Assembly (NCBI GenBank): GCA_022791255.1
Contig: JAAVYR010000005.1
Coordinates: 1-40,769, forward strand
Source: Peptococcaceae bacterium
GTDB lineage: Bacteria; Bacillota; Dehalobacteriia; UBA4068; JAAVYR01
DNA length: 40,769 bases
Reading direction: 5' to 3'
Shown: positions 20,217-40,769 of the stretch, piece by piece
Layout of the letters: the number at the start of each line of letters is the position of its first letter
How positions within the stretch are numbered: the stretch's first letter is position 1
The notes under the pieces: model-generated
Seen by the model: the letters and a program-made list of their open reading frames with translations, nothing else
The model's database searches: none
What the model was told of the DNA's origin: nothing
Program-made: the position numbers and the translations under genes

Positions 20217-21563
20217 CTATTTTTTTACTTTTTTTATTTCGTTGATTTCCTGTTGGATGATTTCAACTTTTTCACCGTTAAGGATACGGTTAGTGGTGCG
20301 CAGGGCGCACATTTTACCGCACATGGAACAGCTATGCCGATCAGAGGGGGGCACTTCTTCATAATATTTTCGTGCTTTTTCTCCATCTAATGCCAGGGCA
20401 AACTGAGTCTCCCAGTCGAAGTTTCTTCTTGCTTCACTCATTTTATCGTCTATATCTCTCGCGTGAGGGATGCCTTTGGCAATGTCGGCAGCGTGGGCTG
20501 CGATTTTTGTAGCGATGATGCCTTCTTTTACATCGTCTGCATTAGGCAGTCGCAAATGCTCAGCAGGGGTCACATAGCAGAGAAAATCTGCACCGTTGAC
20601 AGCAGCAATGGCACCACCGATTGCGGCAGTAATATGGTCATAACCAGGGGCGATATCCGTAACCACAGGACCTAACACATAAAAGGGCGCGCCATGGCAT
20701 AGCTTTTTCTCCATGGTCATATTAGCGGCGATTTCATTTAAGGCCATATGGCCGGGGCCTTCTATCATTACCTGTACATTTTTTTCCCAAGCTCGTTTGG
20801 TAAGATTGCCTAGTTCGATGAGCTCGCAAATCTGTCCGGCATCTGTGGCGTCCTTGAGACTGCCAGGTCGCATAGCGTCGCCTAAACTAATGGTTACATC
20901 ATATTCATAAAGGATATCAAGCACTTGGTCATAGTATTCATAGAAAGGGTTTTCGTTCCCGGTCATTTCCATCCAGGCAAAGAGAAGAGAGCCGCCACGG
21001 GAAACAATATTCATGAGACGGGGACTTCTCTTAAATGCTTCTATTGTACGCCGATTGATACCGGCGTGAATGGTAACAAAGTCTACCCCTTGTTGGGCAT
21101 GGCGTTCCACTACATCTAAGAAATCTTGGGCAGTAATCTCAAATAAATCTTTTTCTAGATAACCAATGGCGTCATAAATGGGCACTGTACCAATCATAGC
21201 AGGGGAGTGGGCGATAAGCCGTTCTCGGAATTCTTGAGTTTTGCCATAGTTACTTAAATCCATGATGGCCTCGGCTCCGTAACGGAGAGATACGGCTACT
21301 TTTTCCATTTCCTTTTGGTAGTCGGCCGCATCCCCGGAAACACCTAAGTTTACATTGATTTTTGTTTTTAGTCCGGCACCTATTCCATGGGGATGCAGGG
21401 CTTTGTGATTGATATTGGCAGGAATGACAATTTGTCCTTGGGCGATTTTTTCTATGATATATTCTGGGGCATAGCCTTCCTCTTGGGCTACCTGCAGCAT
21501 TTCTTTGGTAATAATTCCTTTTTTTGCTGCTTCCATTTGGGTTTTATAGCGAATAATTTTCAT
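20217..21563 (-). CDS. thiC: Phosphomethylpyrimidine synthase (radical SAM HMP-P synthase)
   Basis: ThiC converts aminoimidazole ribotide to HMP-phosphate using a [4Fe-4S] cluster and SAM. The 448-aa protein is the short form without the N-terminal extension of the E. coli enzyme. Recognised segments are [13 protein letters not shown] (about 158-170), [25 protein letters not shown] and [21 protein letters not shown]. The C-terminal cysteine cluster reads CSMCGKMC, i.e. CX2CX3C, one residue tighter than the CX2CX4C commonly cited. It lies 15 bp after thiD. Confidence 0.96.
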
Positions 21564-22490: not shown

Positions 22491-22529
22491 TTCACACGCA
22501 ATTGATTTCATCTATTTTTCGTGTCATTT

Positions 22530-22617
22530 GCTTCCCTACGATAGTCTTAACTAACAGGTTCAAAGGGTCAGGTTTTAACCTTCTCAACTTTAGCCCTAGG
22601 GCTTTTAGTCCCCCCAC
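22530..22617 (-). ncRNA. TPP riboswitch aptamer (THI element)
   Basis: On the minus strand the THI-box landmarks are present in order: a G-rich 5' arm (GGGGGGACT), GGGCTAAAGTTGAGA (the usual CTGAGA is TTGAGA here), ACCCTTTGAACCTG, a P5-type arm, and CGTAGGGAAGC at the end. It precedes thiD and a terminator, so it controls the whole thiD-thiC-thiM-thiE operon according to TPP level. Confidence 0.93.
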
Positions 22618-22628
22618 AAATTTAGTTT

Positions 22629-22754: not shown

Positions 22755-23558
22755 GTGTTGGTAAACAATCAAATAAAAATATTGATGAATGGCATTTGTG
22801 GCAAAATGGGAAAGGCTATGACGGCAGGGCTGATTAATGAAGCGGATATGCAGATTGTTGGTGGGGTGGATATAAAAGGCGGTGCTGATATTGGTGCTCT
22901 TTGCGGTCTGGAGCCAAATGGTATTTTAGTAGAAACTGACTTGGCGGTTGCTATTGAAAATAAACATCCTGATGTGGTAGTAGACTTTACCAATCCGCAA
23001 GTAGTCATGAAAAATATCCGCACTGCTCTAGAGTTGAGAACTCCGATTATTGTAGGTTCTACTGGGATTACCGAAGATGATTTAACGACAATAGAAGCAC
23101 TATCTAATCAATACGATACCCAAGTATTTATTGCACCAAACTTTGCTTTAGGTGCCATTCTCATGATGCGGTTTGCACAAGAGGCTGCAGCATATTTTCC
23201 TCATGTAGAAGTGATAGAACGACATCATGACCAAAAGCTAGACGCGCCTTCTGGCACAGCTATCAAAACTATGGAAATGATGAGTACAAACCGTGGTGTT
23301 TTTGCGCAAGGGGCGGCCAATGAGTTTGAAAAGATTAATGGCAGCCGCGGCGGTGATTTTCAAGGAATGCGGGTGCATAGTGTGCGTTTGCCTGGTTATG
23401 TAGCGACGCAAGAAGTAGTTTTTGGCGGATTAGGGCAAATCCTTACCATTAAGCATGATGCCATATCCAGAGAAACTTATTTACCTGGATTAATATTATC
23501 TTTGCGGAAAATTAAGGAGTTACAAGGGTTAGTTTATGGCTTAGAAAAGATTATGTAA
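22755..23558 (+). CDS. dapB: 4-hydroxy-tetrahydrodipicolinate reductase
   Basis: DapB reduces the DapA product in the lysine/diaminopimelate pathway. Motifs are the dinucleotide-binding NGICGKMGKAM near the N-terminus, VDFTNPQ, GSTGITEDD, the catalytic region ERHHDQKLDAPSGTA (about 155-169) and a C-terminal GLILSLRKI. About 267 aa, typical length. GAGGAG ends at 22749. GTG 22755 (5 nt) and TTG 22758 (8 nt) are both possible starts; GTG 22749 overlaps the ribosome site. dapB stands alone; no other lysine gene is adjacent. Confidence 0.93.
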   Translation: MLVNNQIKILMNGICGKMGKAMTAGLINEADMQIVGGVDIKGGADIGALCGLEPNGILVETDLAVAIENKHPDVVVDFTNPQVVMKNIRTALELRTPIIVGSTGITEDDLTTIEALSNQYDTQVFIAPNFALGAILMMRFAQEAAAYFPHVEVIERHHDQKLDAPSGTAIKTMEMMSTNRGVFAQGAANEFEKINGSRGGDFQGMRVHSVRLPGYVATQEVVFGGLGQILTIKHDAISRETYLPGLILSLRKIKELQGLVYGLEKIM

Positions 23559-23583
23559 AAGTCGTAATTCATTTAAGAAAATC

Positions 23584-23643
23584 AATCATCCACTATCTCA
23601 GCATAAATAATTTGTCCTGAGAAATAGTGGATGATTTTTTTAT
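23584..23643 (+). terminator. dapB terminator
   Basis: AATCATCCACTAT...CTCAG pairs with CTGAG...ATAGTGGATGATT across a long A/T-rich loop, followed by a run of seven or more T. It marks the border between core sequence and the cassette region. Confidence 0.85.
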
Positions 23644-23667
23644 TCATCAGATACTACCACGGATTAT

Positions 23668-23730
23668 GCCACGCTGAGCCTAGGCATTACTGAGTACTTC
23701 TGACAGAAAAGTATGTAATTGTCGGTAGTA
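23668..23730. repeat. Cassette-flanking box, copy 2 (orphan copy upstream of cassette 2)
   Basis: This is the same box as at 147-209: ATGCCACGCTGAGC, a GAGTACTTCTGACAG arm, and GTAATTGTCGGTAGTA. The inverted repeat is TACTTCTGACA with TGTCGGTAGTA. No glycine-rich ORF precedes it, so it is an orphan 3' end. A further partial copy (GTAATTGCCGGAAGCAG...TTTTCGTA) at 23784-23818 runs into cassette 2. Confidence 0.65.
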
Positions 23731-23787
23731 TATTGTGCTATAGAGTATCGGAGGGATATTTACTGCCTTTGCCAGCGGGAAAAGTAA

Positions 23788-25203
23788 TTGCCGGAAGCAG
23801 AGAGTAATGTTTTCGTAGAACGTGGCATAATCCTCTCCCTGCTGCTCTCCATGGTTCCCCCTATCCCACAGGCGGCATGGGCGGCGCCAAGCAGTACCAA
23901 TAGTGCGCCGGCGTTAAATCTGGCATTGGCCAGCAATGTGAAGTACCAGCTGGAAAACGGCAAGACGTACACATTAAGTGCGGCTAGCGTTTCCAACACA
24001 GTTATTGAAGTGGCTAGTGGTAGAACGGCGACAGTGGTAGTGCCGAAGAATGTTGCTGTTACCATTGACGACTACAATAACGGCTGTAGTCCTATCTCTC
24101 TTTTGGGCAGTGGGAAACTGACCTTAGTGGTGGATGGGACTTTAACTGTGACTGGCGGTGCGGCAACAAATGGTACAGGTCATCCGATTAATAACGCAGA
24201 CCGGGAAATCAATAAAGGGAAAGGTGGCTATGCCGGGATTTCGGTTCCTGTTGGCACCTCATTGACTGTTCGAGGCAGCGGCACCTTGCTTGCGCGTGGT
24301 GGTGACGCTGGAAATGGCGGCGAACAAATCCGAGACCCATATGGTACAAATACCGACTGTGGCGGCGGTGGCGGTGGCGGCGCCGGTGCCGGCATTGGTG
24401 GTAACGGTGGCGACGGGGGTTCTTATGGTACTACAGTTGGCCGACCAGGGATAGGTGCTGGTACGATAGCCATTTATGAAACGGTAAAAGTAACTGCTTA
24501 TGGCGGCGGCGGCGGTTCTGGTAATCCTGCAACGAATGCAACTTCTGGTGGCGGTGCCGGTGGGTATCCTGCAGCTGGTATTGGTGGTGGCGGTAGTGGC
24601 GGTGGTAATGGGACTTCTGGTAATGGTGGTGGCGGTTTCTCCGGGGGCGGTGGGGAAGATGCCAATTACCAAGGGGTAAATAGTGGTAAAGGCGGTACCA
24701 ATGGTGCCGGCGGTAAGGGGGGTATGCAATCTGCTGGCGGAAATGGCTCTATGGGAATAGGTGGTGGTGGTTATTATAGTAGGGGTACTGGCAGAAATAC
24801 TACAGCTTTGACTGGTGGTATAATTGCCGGTGGTGCTGGTGGTTATGATGGTTCTGATGCGAATGTTGGTAGTAATGGTGGGGCAGGTGGTACTGTATAT
24901 CTGGGGAATAAAGCTGCTCTAACTGTTGCTAACGGCAGTCTTATTTCTACGACAAAGCAAAAATGGGGACAAAGTCCAACATTTATTTATAGGCAATATG
25001 GTTATGAAACAGCAGCAATTCGTGGAGCAACGGCCCTAACAAGTGTTAACACTAGTTCGGAGTCTACTTTTTTGAGTTCTTTAGCTAGTATTGCTAAAAA
25101 GGATAATGGCATTTCTAAAAAGGGGGTTGGTTCCGGGGCAGGTTATACAGAAAGCTCTAATGGTTCCTTTACCATCCAAAAGGTTCCGGAACGGGTGGGA
25201 TGA
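23788..25203 (+). CDS. Glycine-rich secreted-type protein, cassette 2
   Basis: The frame opens directly after TAA (23785-23787) with TTG 23788. Its first residues (MPEAESNVFVERG) come from the flanking box and are acidic, not a normal basic signal start. Then follow a hydrophobic core (IILSLLLSMVPP) and the cleavage-like AAWAAPS. The mature part has a beta-rich region (about 40-130), a long Gly-rich middle (about 170-380, e.g. PAAGIGGGG, GGGGFSGGGG), a WGQ-TxIYxQxGY block and the constant GVGSGAG...QKVPERV end. A one-base length difference after VPERV makes this copy stop early compared with cassette 1. Family unknown; probably a surface or secreted repeat protein, or a silent copy. Confidence 0.6.
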   Translation: MPEAESNVFVERGIILSLLLSMVPPIPQAAWAAPSSTNSAPALNLALASNVKYQLENGKTYTLSAASVSNTVIEVASGRTATVVVPKNVAVTIDDYNNGCSPISLLGSGKLTLVVDGTLTVTGGAATNGTGHPINNADREINKGKGGYAGISVPVGTSLTVRGSGTLLARGGDAGNGGEQIRDPYGTNTDCGGGGGGGAGAGIGGNGGDGGSYGTTVGRPGIGAGTIAIYETVKVTAYGGGGGSGNPATNATSGGGAGGYPAAGIGGGGSGGGNGTSGNGGGGFSGGGGEDANYQGVNSGKGGTNGAGGKGGMQSAGGNGSMGIGGGGYYSRGTGRNTTALTGGIIAGGAGGYDGSDANVGSNGGAGGTVYLGNKAALTVANGSLISTTKQKWGQSPTFIYRQYGYETAAIRGATALTSVNTSSESTFLSSLASIAKKDNGISKKGVGSGAGYTESSNGSFTIQKVPERVG

Positions 25204-25204
25204 T

Positions 25205-25267
25205 GCCACGATGTACATGGGCACTACCGAGTACTTCCGGCAGAGAGGAAAGTAATTAGCGGGAGTA
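25205..25267. repeat. Cassette-flanking box, copy 3 (3' of cassette 2)
   Basis: Nearly identical to copy 1 (147-209), including CACTACCGAGTACTTCCGG and the arm ending AGCGGGAGTA. Inverted repeat TACTTCCGGCA / TAGCGGGAGTA is imperfect, as in copy 1. Confidence 0.75.
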
Positions 25268-25299
25268 GATAAAATGTTTTTGTAACAGTGGCAATACTT

Positions 25300-25372
25300 T
25301 GTCATGCTGAGGAGCATAGCGACGAAGCATCCTAAAGATCCTTCGTTGCGTTTTACTCCACTCAGGATGACA
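25300..25372. repeat. Palindromic interspersed repeat (MITE-like, GTCATGCTGAG...CTCAGGATGACA)
   Basis: The ends TGTCATGCTGAGGAG and CTCCACTCAGGATGACA are inverted copies, and inner GCGACGAAGCATCC pairs with GATCCTTCGTTGC, giving a long imperfect hairpin of about 73 bp. It has no coding capacity. It is inserted between flanking boxes 3 and 4; a half copy lies at 12769-12794. Confidence 0.75.
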
Positions 25373-25378
25373 GATTGC

Positions 25379-25520
25379 GCCACGCTGTACCTGAGCCCTA
25401 CTAAGTACTTTTGACAGAGGATAGGTAATTGTCGGAAGTAGGAAATAATGCTTCCGTAATCTGTGGCAGTATCTGGAAGTGGGGAGTGGTGTTTTCGTAA
25501 AAAGCATCATAATCTGTAGC
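25379..25520. repeat. Cassette-flanking box, copy 4, plus a second partial unit, leading into cassette 3
   Basis: The box (25379-25440) has inverted repeat TACTTTTGACA / TGTCGGAAGTA, pairing in RNA through G-U pairs. It is followed by GGAAATAATGCTTCCGTAATCTGTGGC and then a diverged second unit, GGAAGTGGGGAGTGGTG with TTTTCGTAAAAAGC. So the sequence ahead of cassette 3 is a degenerate tandem of the box. Confidence 0.6.
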
Positions 25521-25551
25521 TGTTACACTCAGCCTCTCCCTGCTGCTCTCC

Positions 25552-26976
25552 ATGGTTCCCCCTATCCCACAGGCGGCATGGGCGGCGCCAAGCAGTACTA
25601 TTGTGACATTGCCGTCAGGCAATGCTTCCAACATTAGCAAGCTGACGCTGGGCAGCGACACCTATCAGCTAACCTCGACGGGAACTGTGAAATATGCACA
25701 AATCATCGTGCCCAATGGCGTTAATGCCGTTTTGTATGTTCCGGGTAGTTTAACGATTGACAATGCACAGAACACGCGGTCCTATACGGCTAGCGAAGAT
25801 AGGGGTATTTCTGCCATTGATATCCAAGGTAACGGCAGTTTGGTGCTGTATGTGCAGGATACGATGAAGCTGTATGGCAGTGCTGCAGGTAATGGGGAAA
25901 ATGCTCGACCAACTTACATTTCTAATGGTGGTCCAGGGGGGAAAGCAGCAATTTCTGTTCCTTCTGGGGCAATTCTGACTTTGCGCGGCAATGGTACCCT
26001 TTATGCCTATGGTGGTGCTGCCGGTGATGGTGGTAGTGCTGGTGAAATAGGCTCGGCTAATCAAGCAGGCGCAGCAGGCGGTGGTGCCGGCGCCGGTATT
26101 GGTGGGAATGGTGGTAAAGGTGGCCATGGCGTTCTGGATAGCAGTGCTCCAAATTCTATTGGGGAAGATGGCGGTGCTGGTATTTCTGCCGGGACCATTA
26201 ATGTGTATGATACCGTGAAGGTATATGCCTATGGCGGTACTGGCGGTAGCGGTGGCCAGCCGGTTTTGAATAAAGGTACTGGCGAGATTAAGTCTACCTC
26301 TGGTTCTGGCGGTGGTGGTGGGTATCCAGCTGCTGGGGTTGGCGGCGGTGGCGGCGGCGCCGGTGGTGCTGACCATGGTAATGGCGGCGGTGGTTTCTCT
26401 GGTGGTGCAGGACAGCAAATATATGTTCGTGATGCCATAAACGGGCAAGGGGGTCCTGCACAAGAGTTTTCTGGTGGTGGCGGTTATTTTAGCAAAGGTG
26501 ATACCGGTTCCTATGCGGCAGGGACTGCAGATGAGATGTTTGGGGGTGCCATTGGTGGTGGTAAGGTTGACACTGTAAATTGGCAAACTCATTCTGGGCA
26601 AGGCGGTAATGCTGGCTCTGGTGGTACTGTGAAAGTGGCTAATCTGGCCAAACTCTATGCTTACAACGGCAGCAGTACCACTACCAGTAAGAACAACTGG
26701 GGACAAAACCAGACGCCTATCTACTGGCAAAACGGCTATTCTTTAGTGAGCGCCCGTAGTGCAGGCAATGTAATTAATAAAGCTGGTGTGGAAACAGCAG
26801 CTCACTTTAATGCAGATCGAAAATTGACCTACTACAATGAAATTACCAAAAACAACTTGGGGGTTGGTTCTGGTGCTGGGTTTATAGAAAGCCACAATGG
26901 TTCCTTTACCACCCAAAAGGTTCCGGAACGGGTGGCTTTGGCTACGCTGTGCGAGAGAAATATTGAGTACTTCTGA
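25552..26976 (+). CDS. Glycine-rich secreted-type protein, cassette 3 (no start before the signal peptide)
   Basis: The reading frame begins right after TAA (25510-25512) as SVAVTLSLSLLLSMVPPIP, so the hydrophobic signal core lacks any ATG/GTG/TTG in front. The only ATG (25552) lies inside the core and would spoil export. A basic RKKHHN stretch sits one frame away (25496-25513), as if the signal peptide were split by a frameshift. The mature part differs from cassette 2 after APSST (LPSGNASNISKLTLG), then shares the layout: Gly-rich middle, YPAAGVGGGGGG, NGGGGFSGG, WGQNQTPIYWQNGY and constant GVGSGAG...QKVPERVALATL end. Best read as a silent or decayed copy; translation from 25552 cannot be excluded. 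Confidence 0.55.
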   Translation: MVPPIPQAAWAAPSSTIVTLPSGNASNISKLTLGSDTYQLTSTGTVKYAQIIVPNGVNAVLYVPGSLTIDNAQNTRSYTASEDRGISAIDIQGNGSLVLYVQDTMKLYGSAAGNGENARPTYISNGGPGGKAAISVPSGAILTLRGNGTLYAYGGAAGDGGSAGEIGSANQAGAAGGGAGAGIGGNGGKGGHGVLDSSAPNSIGEDGGAGISAGTINVYDTVKVYAYGGTGGSGGQPVLNKGTGEIKSTSGSGGGGGYPAAGVGGGGGGAGGADHGNGGGGFSGGAGQQIYVRDAINGQGGPAQEFSGGGGYFSKGDTGSYAAGTADEMFGGAIGGGKVDTVNWQTHSGQGGNAGSGGTVKVANLAKLYAYNGSSTTTSKNNWGQNQTPIYWQNGYSLVSARSAGNVINKAGVETAAHFNADRKLTYYNEITKNNLGVGSGAGFIESHNGSFTTQKVPERVALATLCERNIEYF

Positions 26977-27003
26977 CAGTGGGGATAGTAATTGTCGGAA
27001 GTA
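26941..27003. repeat. Cassette-flanking box, copy 5 (3' of cassette 3)
   Basis: The inverted repeat is best preserved here: TACTTCTGACA (26968-26978) and TGTCGGAAGTA (26993-27003), 11-bp arms with one T-G mismatch, enclosing 14 bp. It overlaps the stop codon of cassette 3. Confidence 0.7.
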
Positions 27004-27103
27004 AAAAGTTTTCTTGTTTAAAATAGTGCAACAATGGGCAATATAGCTGGTAAGATAACTGAATTTATGATAAGATAATTCCAAAGAAAGGAGTGTAAAG
27101 GCT

Positions 27104-28639
27104 ATGTGGGAAACATCTGAAAAATCTTATATTTGCATTGACCTAAAAAGCTTTTATGCTTCTGTGGAATGTATTGAGCGAAAACTGGATCCGCTCAATG
27201 TTAATTTAGTGGTAGCCGATGAAAGTAGAACAGCAAAGACAATTTGCCTTTCTGTTTCTCCCGCATTAAAATCCTATGGTATTCCTGGCCGTCCTCGGTT
27301 ATTTGAAGTGGTGGAGAAGGTGCGGCAATTGAATGCCGAACGAAAACGACAAGTACCGGGACATCGTTTTTCTGGCGAGTCTTATTTCAGGGATGAGTTG
27401 GCTGCCAATAAAAATTTAAGCTTATCTTATATTGTAGCCAAGCCTAGGATGGCGCTGTATATAGAATATAGTACGAGGATATATCAGATTTACCTAAAAT
27501 ATATTGCCCCTGAGGATATTCAGGTTTACTCGATTGATGAGGTTTTTATTGATTGTACAGCCTATCTAAAAGCTTATGGCAAGACACCCCGTGAGCTAGC
27601 AAGCGCTATCATCAATGATATCTTTCAAACGACGGGAATTACAGCAACTGCTGGCGTTGGTACTAATTTATATTTGGCAAAGGTTGCCATGGATATTGTG
27701 GCCAAGCACAAAGAACCTGATAAAAATGGTGCTCGTATTGCAGAGCTGGATGAGTTGACTTACCGTCGTCTTTTGTGGAGCCATCGTCCTCTCACAGACT
27801 TTTGGCGCATCGGCAAAGGCTATGCTCAAAAGCTAGAGGACCATGGTCTGTATACGATGGGAGATATTGCTCGTTGTTCTTTAGGAAAGCCGGGAGACAA
27901 ATATAACGAGGATTTACTCTACGGATTGTTTGGCGTTAATGCAGAGTTGCTTATCGACCATGCTTGGGGCTGGGAGCCATGTACCATTGCAGATATCAAA
28001 GCTTATAAACCGGCTTCTAGCAGCACTGGCGGCGGGCAAGTATTGCCGTATCCTTATGACTATGAAAAGACCAAACTGGTTGTAAAAGAAATGGTGGATA
28101 TGCTGGCCTTGAATTTAGTAGAAAAACAACTAGTTACCAATCAGATTGTCTTAACCATTGGTTATGACAAGGAAAATCTAGGGTCTGGTCAGCAAGGATG
28201 TGCCTATGATGGGGAAATCACGCTGGACCGCTATGGAAGAAAAACACCCAAACACAGTCATGGCACGGTCAATCTAGACAAATATTCTTCTTCTGAAAAA
28301 GTAATTTTACAAGCAGTGCTACAGCTATATGAAGAAATTATCAATAAAAAGTTATTGGTGCGTCGTATCTATATCACGGCTAATCATGTTATTCCAGAAG
28401 AGGAAATAAACAATTTGCCACCTGTTATGGAACAACTGGATTTGTTTACAGATTATGAGGCACTGGCTAAACAACAGACAATGGAACAACAAGCGCTGGA
28501 AAAAGAACGGAAAATCCAAGAAGCTGTGATTGGCATCAAAAAGCAATATGGGAAAAATGCCATTATCAAGGGAATGAATATGCAGGAGGGGGCTACTGCC
28601 CGCACGCGAAATAAACAAATCGGCGGGCACAAAGCCTAG
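27104..28639 (+). CDS. Y-family DNA polymerase (UmuC/DinB-like, UvrX type)
   Basis: A translesion DNA polymerase of 511 aa. The palm-domain metal motifs are visible: CIDLKSFYASVE (Asp13) and YSIDEVFID (Asp145, Glu146). The TAGVGTNLYLAKVAMD region (about 180-195) is the thumb helix-hairpin-helix entry. The C-terminal little-finger region and a charged tail follow. AAAGGAGTG precedes ATG 27104. The next gene is a YolD-like protein, the usual partner of this subgroup in Firmicutes, so the pair is probably damage-induced; no clear LexA box was seen in the 100 bp upstream. Confidence 0.9.
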   Translation: MWETSEKSYICIDLKSFYASVECIERKLDPLNVNLVVADESRTAKTICLSVSPALKSYGIPGRPRLFEVVEKVRQLNAERKRQVPGHRFSGESYFRDELAANKNLSLSYIVAKPRMALYIEYSTRIYQIYLKYIAPEDIQVYSIDEVFIDCTAYLKAYGKTPRELASAIINDIFQTTGITATAGVGTNLYLAKVAMDIVAKHKEPDKNGARIAELDELTYRRLLWSHRPLTDFWRIGKGYAQKLEDHGLYTMGDIARCSLGKPGDKYNEDLLYGLFGVNAELLIDHAWGWEPCTIADIKAYKPASSSTGGGQVLPYPYDYEKTKLVVKEMVDMLALNLVEKQLVTNQIVLTIGYDKENLGSGQQGCAYDGEITLDRYGRKTPKHSHGTVNLDKYSSSEKVILQAVLQLYEEIINKKLLVRRIYITANHVIPEEEINNLPPVMEQLDLFTDYEALAKQQTMEQQALEKERKIQEAVIGIKKQYGKNAIIKGMNMQEGATARTRNKQIGGHKA

Positions 28640-40548: not shown

Positions 40549-40631
40549 ATTCGGAAGTAGAGGGAGTGGTGTTTTCGTAAAAAGCATCATAATTTGTAGC
40601 TGTTACACTCAGCCTCTCCCTGCTGCTCTCC
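40549..40631. repeat. Cassette-flanking sequence and start-less signal block in front of cassette 4
   Basis: TTCGGAAGTAGAGGGAGTGG...TTTTCGTAAAAAGC and the following CATCATAAT-TTGTAGCTG match the sequence before cassette 3 (25474-25551) almost base for base. The same TAA (40590-40592) precedes the hydrophobic LSLSLLL frame, and the same RKKHHN stretch lies in another frame. Confidence 0.7.
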
Positions 40632-40769
40632 ATGGTTCCCCCTATCCCACAGGCGGCATGGGCGGCGCCAAGCAGTACCAATAGTGCGCCGGCGTTGAGC
40701 TTAGCATTGGCTAGCAATGTGAAATACCAGCTGGAAAACGGCAAGACATACACGTTAAGTGCGGCTAGC
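40632..40769 (+). CDS. Glycine-rich secreted-type protein, cassette 4 (5' part, cut by window end)
   Basis: 46 codons from the internal ATG: MVPPIPQAAWAAPSST, then NSAPALSLALASNVKYQLEN and a GKTYTLSAAS end. This matches cassette 2 (from 23851) nearly throughout, including identical DNA over the signal block, and differs from cassette 3 after APSST. The frame continues upstream to TAA 40590-40592 without a start codon. The rest is outside the window. Confidence 0.6.
   Translation, partial: MVPPIPQAAWAAPSSTNSAPALSLALASNVKYQLENGKTYTLSAAS

Follow-up and report, generated by a model that had tools for sequence, protein, structure and literature searches.

Start-less signal-peptide segments in a Peptococcaceae genome as probable edges of silent donor cassettes for a single expression site

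Why would the coding sequence of a signal peptide occur more than once in a contig with its start missing in the same way each time? The stretch of DNA analysed here (the window, 40,769 nt) is the entire contig C11 of a Peptococcaceae genome of 1.56 Mb in 24 contigs. Its frame directly behind the TAA at 25,510 reads S-VAVTLSLSLLLSMVPPIPQAAWAAPSS / SVAVTLSLSLLLSMVPPIPQAAWAAPSS. The TAA, the hydrophobic core and a 56-nt spacing from a CGT to the internal ATG all recur at 25,496 and 40,576 (25,496 to 25,552 and 40,576 to 40,632), the two stretches differing by a single base, and a basic RKKHHN is readable one frame off in both copies (cassettes 3 and 4 of the window). An earlier note on this DNA had described exactly this combination, which is borne out at both window sites. 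We propose that a silent donor cassette has its 5' edge in this segment, within a gene-conversion system that resembles antigenic variation and is served by one expression site, a reading that we hold with a probability of about 0.87.

To place the segment in its genomic context, we searched all contigs for its 27-nt core (CTCTCCATGGTTCCCCCTATCCCACAG). The core had 21 copies, all but one perfect, compared with 0 for a reversed-pattern control, a recurrence far beyond chance. The first 51 nt were identical in all copies apart from one C-to-T change in C14 (20/21). The earlier description was thus correct but incomplete, having had one contig of 24 in view. A search of the genome with the cassette protein returned 27 places, many of them contig ends; when distinct 5' blocks were counted, with the C2 end and C21 taken as one locus, there were ~20 cassettes. 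Some 19 of these are start-less copies, found one to three per place in small groups between housekeeping genes on many contigs. The earlier note had held that the shared loss of the start was not independent decay; this stands, with a start-less core at ~19 loci, four of which have an identical 5' edge (window 25,546, window 40,626, C19:5,888 and the C1 end). Among the public genome contigs and viral contigs searched, the exact 29-nt core had no match.

The copies are delimited by blocks of near-identity at both ends. Agreement with the expression site was 0.99–1.0 over the 5' block, then ~0.4–0.5 just beyond it. Upstream, homology stops at a few discrete points. Most copies lose it ~3–12 nt above the core; it reaches ~32 nt in C19, the C1 end and cassettes 3 and 4 of the window, and ~75 nt in the C12 end, which is still without an in-frame start codon. 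At the opposite end a block of ~40 nt, ending ...QKVPERV, is nearly identical among copies, and homology on this side has several end points: after GGTGG, GGTGGCTTTGGC, slightly beyond that in C12, and at a far more distant place in C3. Such graded ends on both sides give the copies the look of donor fragments of one gene.

Four cassettes fall in the window, all on the forward strand. Cassette 1, a putatively silent copy, is present as its 3' end (1–141), closing with the 3' homology block ...AAAAGGTTCCGGAACGGGTGG (121–141); this start of the contig overlaps the C12 and C13 ends by 125 nt. Cassette 2 (23,845–25,198), a putative silent donor of the Gly-rich variable domain, has no credible start, its sole in-frame candidate being a TTG without a Shine–Dalgarno (SD) sequence. 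It opens with a 51-nt 5' block identical to the expression site (23,845–23,895) and closes with a 3' block at 25,159–25,198. Cassette 3 (25,546–26,935), likewise a predicted silent donor, has an open frame and no upstream in-frame start; its 5' block (25,546–25,596) covers the signal-peptide core and cleavage region, and its 3' block lies at 26,896–26,935. Homology to the expression site extends upstream of it over 25,514–25,545 (CTGTAGCTGTTACACTCAGCCTCTCCCTGCTG), to the same extent as in C19, at the C1 end and at 40,594. Cassette 4 is the 5' part of a further predicted silent donor, running to the contig end (40,626–40,769), and its extended 5' homology (40,594–40,625) has one mismatch (TTGTAGC). 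A Y-family DNA polymerase gene (impB/mucB/samB; 27,104–28,639) follows directly after cassette 3 and was not found in either congener genome.

Each cassette could instead be a small secreted protein of its own, made from a non-standard start or by a frameshift that joins an n-region to the core. The frames are open over 424–491 aa, and the basic RKKHHN lies one frame off at window copies 3 and 4, as this would predict. But the in-frame GTG, TTG or ATG codons carried by some silent copies are all without an SD, so that an SD-preceded in-frame start was found in none of the ~19 silent copies; a promoter scan around window copies 2–3 gave fewer promoter-like sites than shuffled sequence; the 5' edges differ among copies; and in a sister species the silent copies begin after the signal-peptide region. 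The RKKHHN stretch (25,496–25,513, + strand) belongs to the spacer in front of the cassette, where it resembles the end of a dispersed hairpin element (..TTTCGTAAAAAG..). A TAG interrupts it in C19 and it is missing at the C1 end, and for these reasons we ruled it out as the displaced n-region that the earlier note had suspected. The real n-region, RKETGWRKKSLSLRKA, is present in the expression site and the C12-end copy, and the −1 frameshift once considered for joining the two frames is not needed and is rejected. We consider it extremely unlikely that the cassettes are independent genes.

An alignment of the genomic copies, proposed earlier as the way to find an intact ATG-to-core frame, did reveal such a copy. 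At the end of contig C2, after mnmE and mnmG, stands the sole gene-like 5' end among the copies: AAAAGGAGGAATGATACTT-ATG, then MKIKNLLNQPLGRKETGWRKKSLSLRKAVAVTLSLSLLLSMVPPIPQAAWAAPSS, with a basic n-region beginning MKIKNLLNQPLGRKETGWRKK. Only there does an ATG occur with an SD (AAAAGGAGG) and an intact n-region, and a sigma-70-type promoter, TTTACA-17-TATAAT, scores 11/12. The C2 end and the C21 start share a 141-nt overlap. The frame in C21 stays open for 3,850 aa or more and comprises the cassette, then KVPERVALADSNVSVPAKGSLKVTW, and then 23 stretches of fibronectin-III and a dockerin (Pfam); the constant fibronectin-III/dockerin body behind the cassette exceeds 3,300 aa. C21 in turn overlaps the end of C23 by 134 nt, and the frame stops soon after in C23. 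Overlaps of up to 141 nt are found between contig ends, as is typical where repeats interrupt a k-mer graph, and this makes the contigs linkable; many ends fall inside cassettes, which explains why metagenome assemblies break at such loci. Behind the giant gene, the C23 end (L139) has several large ORFs with signal-peptide-like N-termini, possibly parts of a scaffold/cohesin-like surface complex. On C2 (L138), a frame from near 482 contains an ORF ending in a Cys/Gly-rich tail (CGNYNCSTNCCTPCYDTCSSCNCCCNNSCGCNYGCGGCGNNCGCGWGNGC...).

The join of C2 to C21 rests on a k-mer overlap, and the C1 end overlaps the same C21 start equally well (141 nt; L028:1, L097 end and L098 end), this C1 end being silent, with neither SD nor n-region. 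Because the two ends share the C21 overlap, the expressed cassette seems either to have a silent twin or to have been exchanged with the C1 locus. The double overlap may be a collapsed twin copy or a real population mixture of arrangements, and it gives at most an indirect hint of switching. We preferred C2 ahead of C21 on the grounds of its promoter, SD and n-region, and because a second species is arranged likewise.

Taken as a system, these parts would work as follows. The expression site downstream of mnmG would encode a secreted protein with a variable Gly-rich N-terminal domain on a constant fibronectin-III/dockerin body. Each donor matches this site at its 5' end (the signal-peptide core, at least 51 nt) and nearly so at its 3' end (~40 nt), and general homologous recombination through both blocks would swap the cassette in the expression site. 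The incoming cassette would be joined to KVPERVALADSNVSVPAK, and the cell would display a different domain on the same scaffold. The genome contains recA; we infer RecA dependence, the direction and rate of conversion, and surface display of the product. The biological role may be immune, phage or ligand variation. The apparent removal of the start is, on this evidence, best read as the point where the recombination homology of a donor cassette ends, and not as decay of a signal peptide. The earlier alternative of duplication/conversion or a functional boundary proved well founded, the boundary being the homology edge between the putative silent donors and the one expressed gene.

Between their conserved ends the cassette bodies have a median DNA identity of ~68%, with many indels. 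If the copies were dead duplicates, that is, decaying pseudogenes from repeated duplication of one gene, one might expect what is indeed seen in part: no credible start, no promoter at window copies 2–3, and truncation to varying extents. However, the 19 bodies of 1.2–1.4 kb contain zero in-frame stops, and their median dN/dS is ~0.37, a rough figure since synonymous sites are near saturation. Selection at the protein level in copies that have no credible start suggests sequences that are expressed elsewhere, after transfer. In addition, the 51-nt 5' block is almost invariant even at silent positions, whereas synonymous differences in the bodies reach ~0.6, which argues that the block is homogenised by exchange; and a second species has preserved the layout, at sites that are for the most part orthologous. 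We therefore regard decay as a very improbable explanation.

Exchange also appears to reach into the bodies. Pairs that are ~70% identical have exact tracts of 60–140 nt in common, and the nearest relative of a cassette switches along its length. The 5' part of C16, for example, is 0.86 identical to C1a, while its 3' part is 0.88 identical to C20:3980, with C1a at 0.65 there. Distances between body parts still correlate (r 0.39–0.52), so the exchange is partial. By these comparisons the cassettes read as mosaics of one another. A diversity-generating retroelement is an unlikely source of this variation, given copies ~68% identical with many indels.

An imperfect palindrome of ~95 nt (TGCCACGCTGTAC...GTAGAGCGTGGCA), dispersed through the genome with 43 matches, flanks most cassettes. 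Its copies in the window are at 147–228, 23,661–23,730, 25,198–25,293, 25,373–25,468 and 26,965–27,007. The third and fourth of these are the two spacer copies between cassettes 2 and 3 (+ strand), the former folding with a z of −3.0 and the latter defined by genome matches and folding. A second repeat-like hairpin, GTCATGCTGAGGAGCATAGCGACGAAGCATCCT...CACTCAGGATGACA, is also found between these cassettes (25,299–25,372), with similar sequence at the C14 end. The only Rfam match in the window was a TPP riboswitch (RF00059, 56 bits; 22,515–22,625, − strand), ahead of leftward genes including thiC (20,217–21,563); the spacer had none.

Hairpins in this position raise the question of whether the cassettes are mobile units on which a site-specific recombinase or transposase acts, as integron cassettes move via attC. 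Two copies fold with z of −6.5 and −8.2, and the hairpins resemble short inverted-repeat elements, in keeping with such a role. Yet neither C2 nor C21, home of the expressed cassette, has a hairpin copy; homology to the expression site stops within coding sequence and not at the hairpin; and the element also occurs on cassette-free contigs (C10, C18, C23 and C24). We give recombination at the hairpins very little credence as the basis of the system. They may have a role in the spread of silent units, but not in expression. The spacers may also insulate silent copies from transcription: a T-run lies directly ahead of the cassette in some copies here and in 8/8 sister copies. Because a terminator scan of window positions 23,500–27,200 found no excess over shuffled sequence, insulation is a suggestion drawn from the hairpin and the T-run.

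The preferred reading, silent donors for one expression site, can be compared with the sister species, a congener (G002) whose mnmG contig matches CAMNVD010000048.1 (uncultured Clostridia bacterium; MnmG 93% identical). G002 has an expression site at mnmG with an SD, an ATG and the same promoter as the site here. A block of ~80 nt (CGAGCTCCAGGGCGACGCC...GCGGGGGATGG) is identical in 8 aligned silent copies, and the expression site carries it too, as far as the contig reaches. This block lies deeper in the gene than the block described here, and the silent copies of G002 are without a signal peptide. The boundary is therefore not a signal-peptide feature as such, but falls wherever the homology block of the species lies.

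The sites of the donors, too, can be matched between the two species. Similarity to the cassette flanks of this genome was found for 5/6 silent-cassette stretches plus one cassette-edge contig of G002 (L142, L143, L144, L146 and the edge contig L147, not the C14 cluster L141). The matching flanks include dapB, which adjoins window cassettes 2 and 3. From these flanks the silent copies of G002 are judged to be at mostly orthologous sites. In a third congener another gene stands behind dapB and there is no cassette, and in the congener record CATIYQ010000059.1 mnmG has no expression site behind it. Across the genomes of the order and class searched, a cassette profile detected only this genome and one congener. 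A fibronectin-III search in the congeners found none, so that the downstream body of the sister site is either absent from the draft or different.

The exchanged domain itself is Gly-rich, with invariant motifs (GGGAGAGIGG, GGYPAAG) that alternate with variable segments. Two cassettes had no Pfam match. An AlphaFold model of the cassette was of fair confidence (pLDDT 77.5, pTM 0.87), and comparison of the model with the PDB gave nothing significant, the best match being the tip of the phage gp38 adhesin (E 0.21). A viral library gave two weak matches at E 3e-4, with a TM of only 0.15–0.2, which we likewise take as no more than a lead. The resemblance to gp38 adhesin tips, which are likewise Gly-rich, is insignificant and serves as a lead only.

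Several known systems offer parallels. As in vmp (vsp/vlp) of relapsing-fever Borrelia, a single expression site bears the promoter, silent copies are numerous, the 5' end of the gene has a short region of homology, and a downstream homology sequence and inverted repeats nearby complete the picture (PMC4534519). However, vmp genes are on linear plasmids and encode an unrelated protein, whereas the cassettes here are chromosomal and scattered among housekeeping genes; moreover, here the 3' homology lies within coding sequence, the cassette continues in frame into a giant constant body, and hairpins flank silent copies only. Neisseria pilE/pilS has up to 19 silent copies, single or in tandem at several chromosomal loci, that lack a promoter and a ribosome-binding site, together with one expressed gene and conserved shared stretches (PMC4534519). 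Unlike pilin, the protein here has a fibronectin-III and dockerin body and cassettes that, for the two searched, Pfam does not recognize; the bodies are far more divergent, with homology concentrated at both ends; and no G4 motif was found upstream of the expression site in this genome or in the sister, in contrast to pilE/pilS.

The vls locus of Lyme Borrelia also combines a single expression site, vlsE, with promoter-less silent cassettes that correspond to the central cassette region and have mostly open frames, but it is a contiguous plasmid array of ~90% identity (PMC11499132), whereas the cassettes here are dispersed and ~68% identical. Anaplasma msp2/p44 and Mycoplasma synoviae vlhA similarly use pseudogene fragments, placed between the conserved flanks of a single expression site or behind a unique promoter (PMC4534519, PMC2825196), in other hosts and with other protein families; no sequence relation is expected. 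By analogy, the present system would work like vmp switching combined with the scattered loci of pilE/pilS, while belonging to none of those protein families.

On balance, we lean towards an independently evolved, genus-restricted system of uncultured gut Clostridia/Peptococcaceae, in which a giant fibronectin-III/dockerin scaffold has its N-terminal domain swapped. A genome-wide reset of the boundary would then separate the sister species, with the signal-peptide core as the boundary in one and a place deep within the mature domain in the other, while most donor sites stayed orthologous. The review of gene conversion in pathogens and symbionts (Anaplasma, Neisseria, Borrelia, Treponema and Mycoplasma; PMC4534519) makes no mention of Firmicutes or Clostridia, and our searches of the open-access literature on gut commensals and Clostridia turned up no such system, an absence that is weak evidence. 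What would be new here is the host lineage, the protein architecture and the species-specific boundary.

If the reading is correct, switching of a surface coat from donor cassettes would also occur in gut residents not known as pathogens, where it might act against IgA or phages, or in the choice of ligand. It would involve ~19 donors in an uncultured relative of the Clostridia with a small genome, a congener record of which is, by its catalogue name, a mouse-gut metagenome-assembled genome. Two species with different recombination edges and mostly orthologous donor sites would then provide a natural comparison for how the boundaries of such a system are set and maintained.
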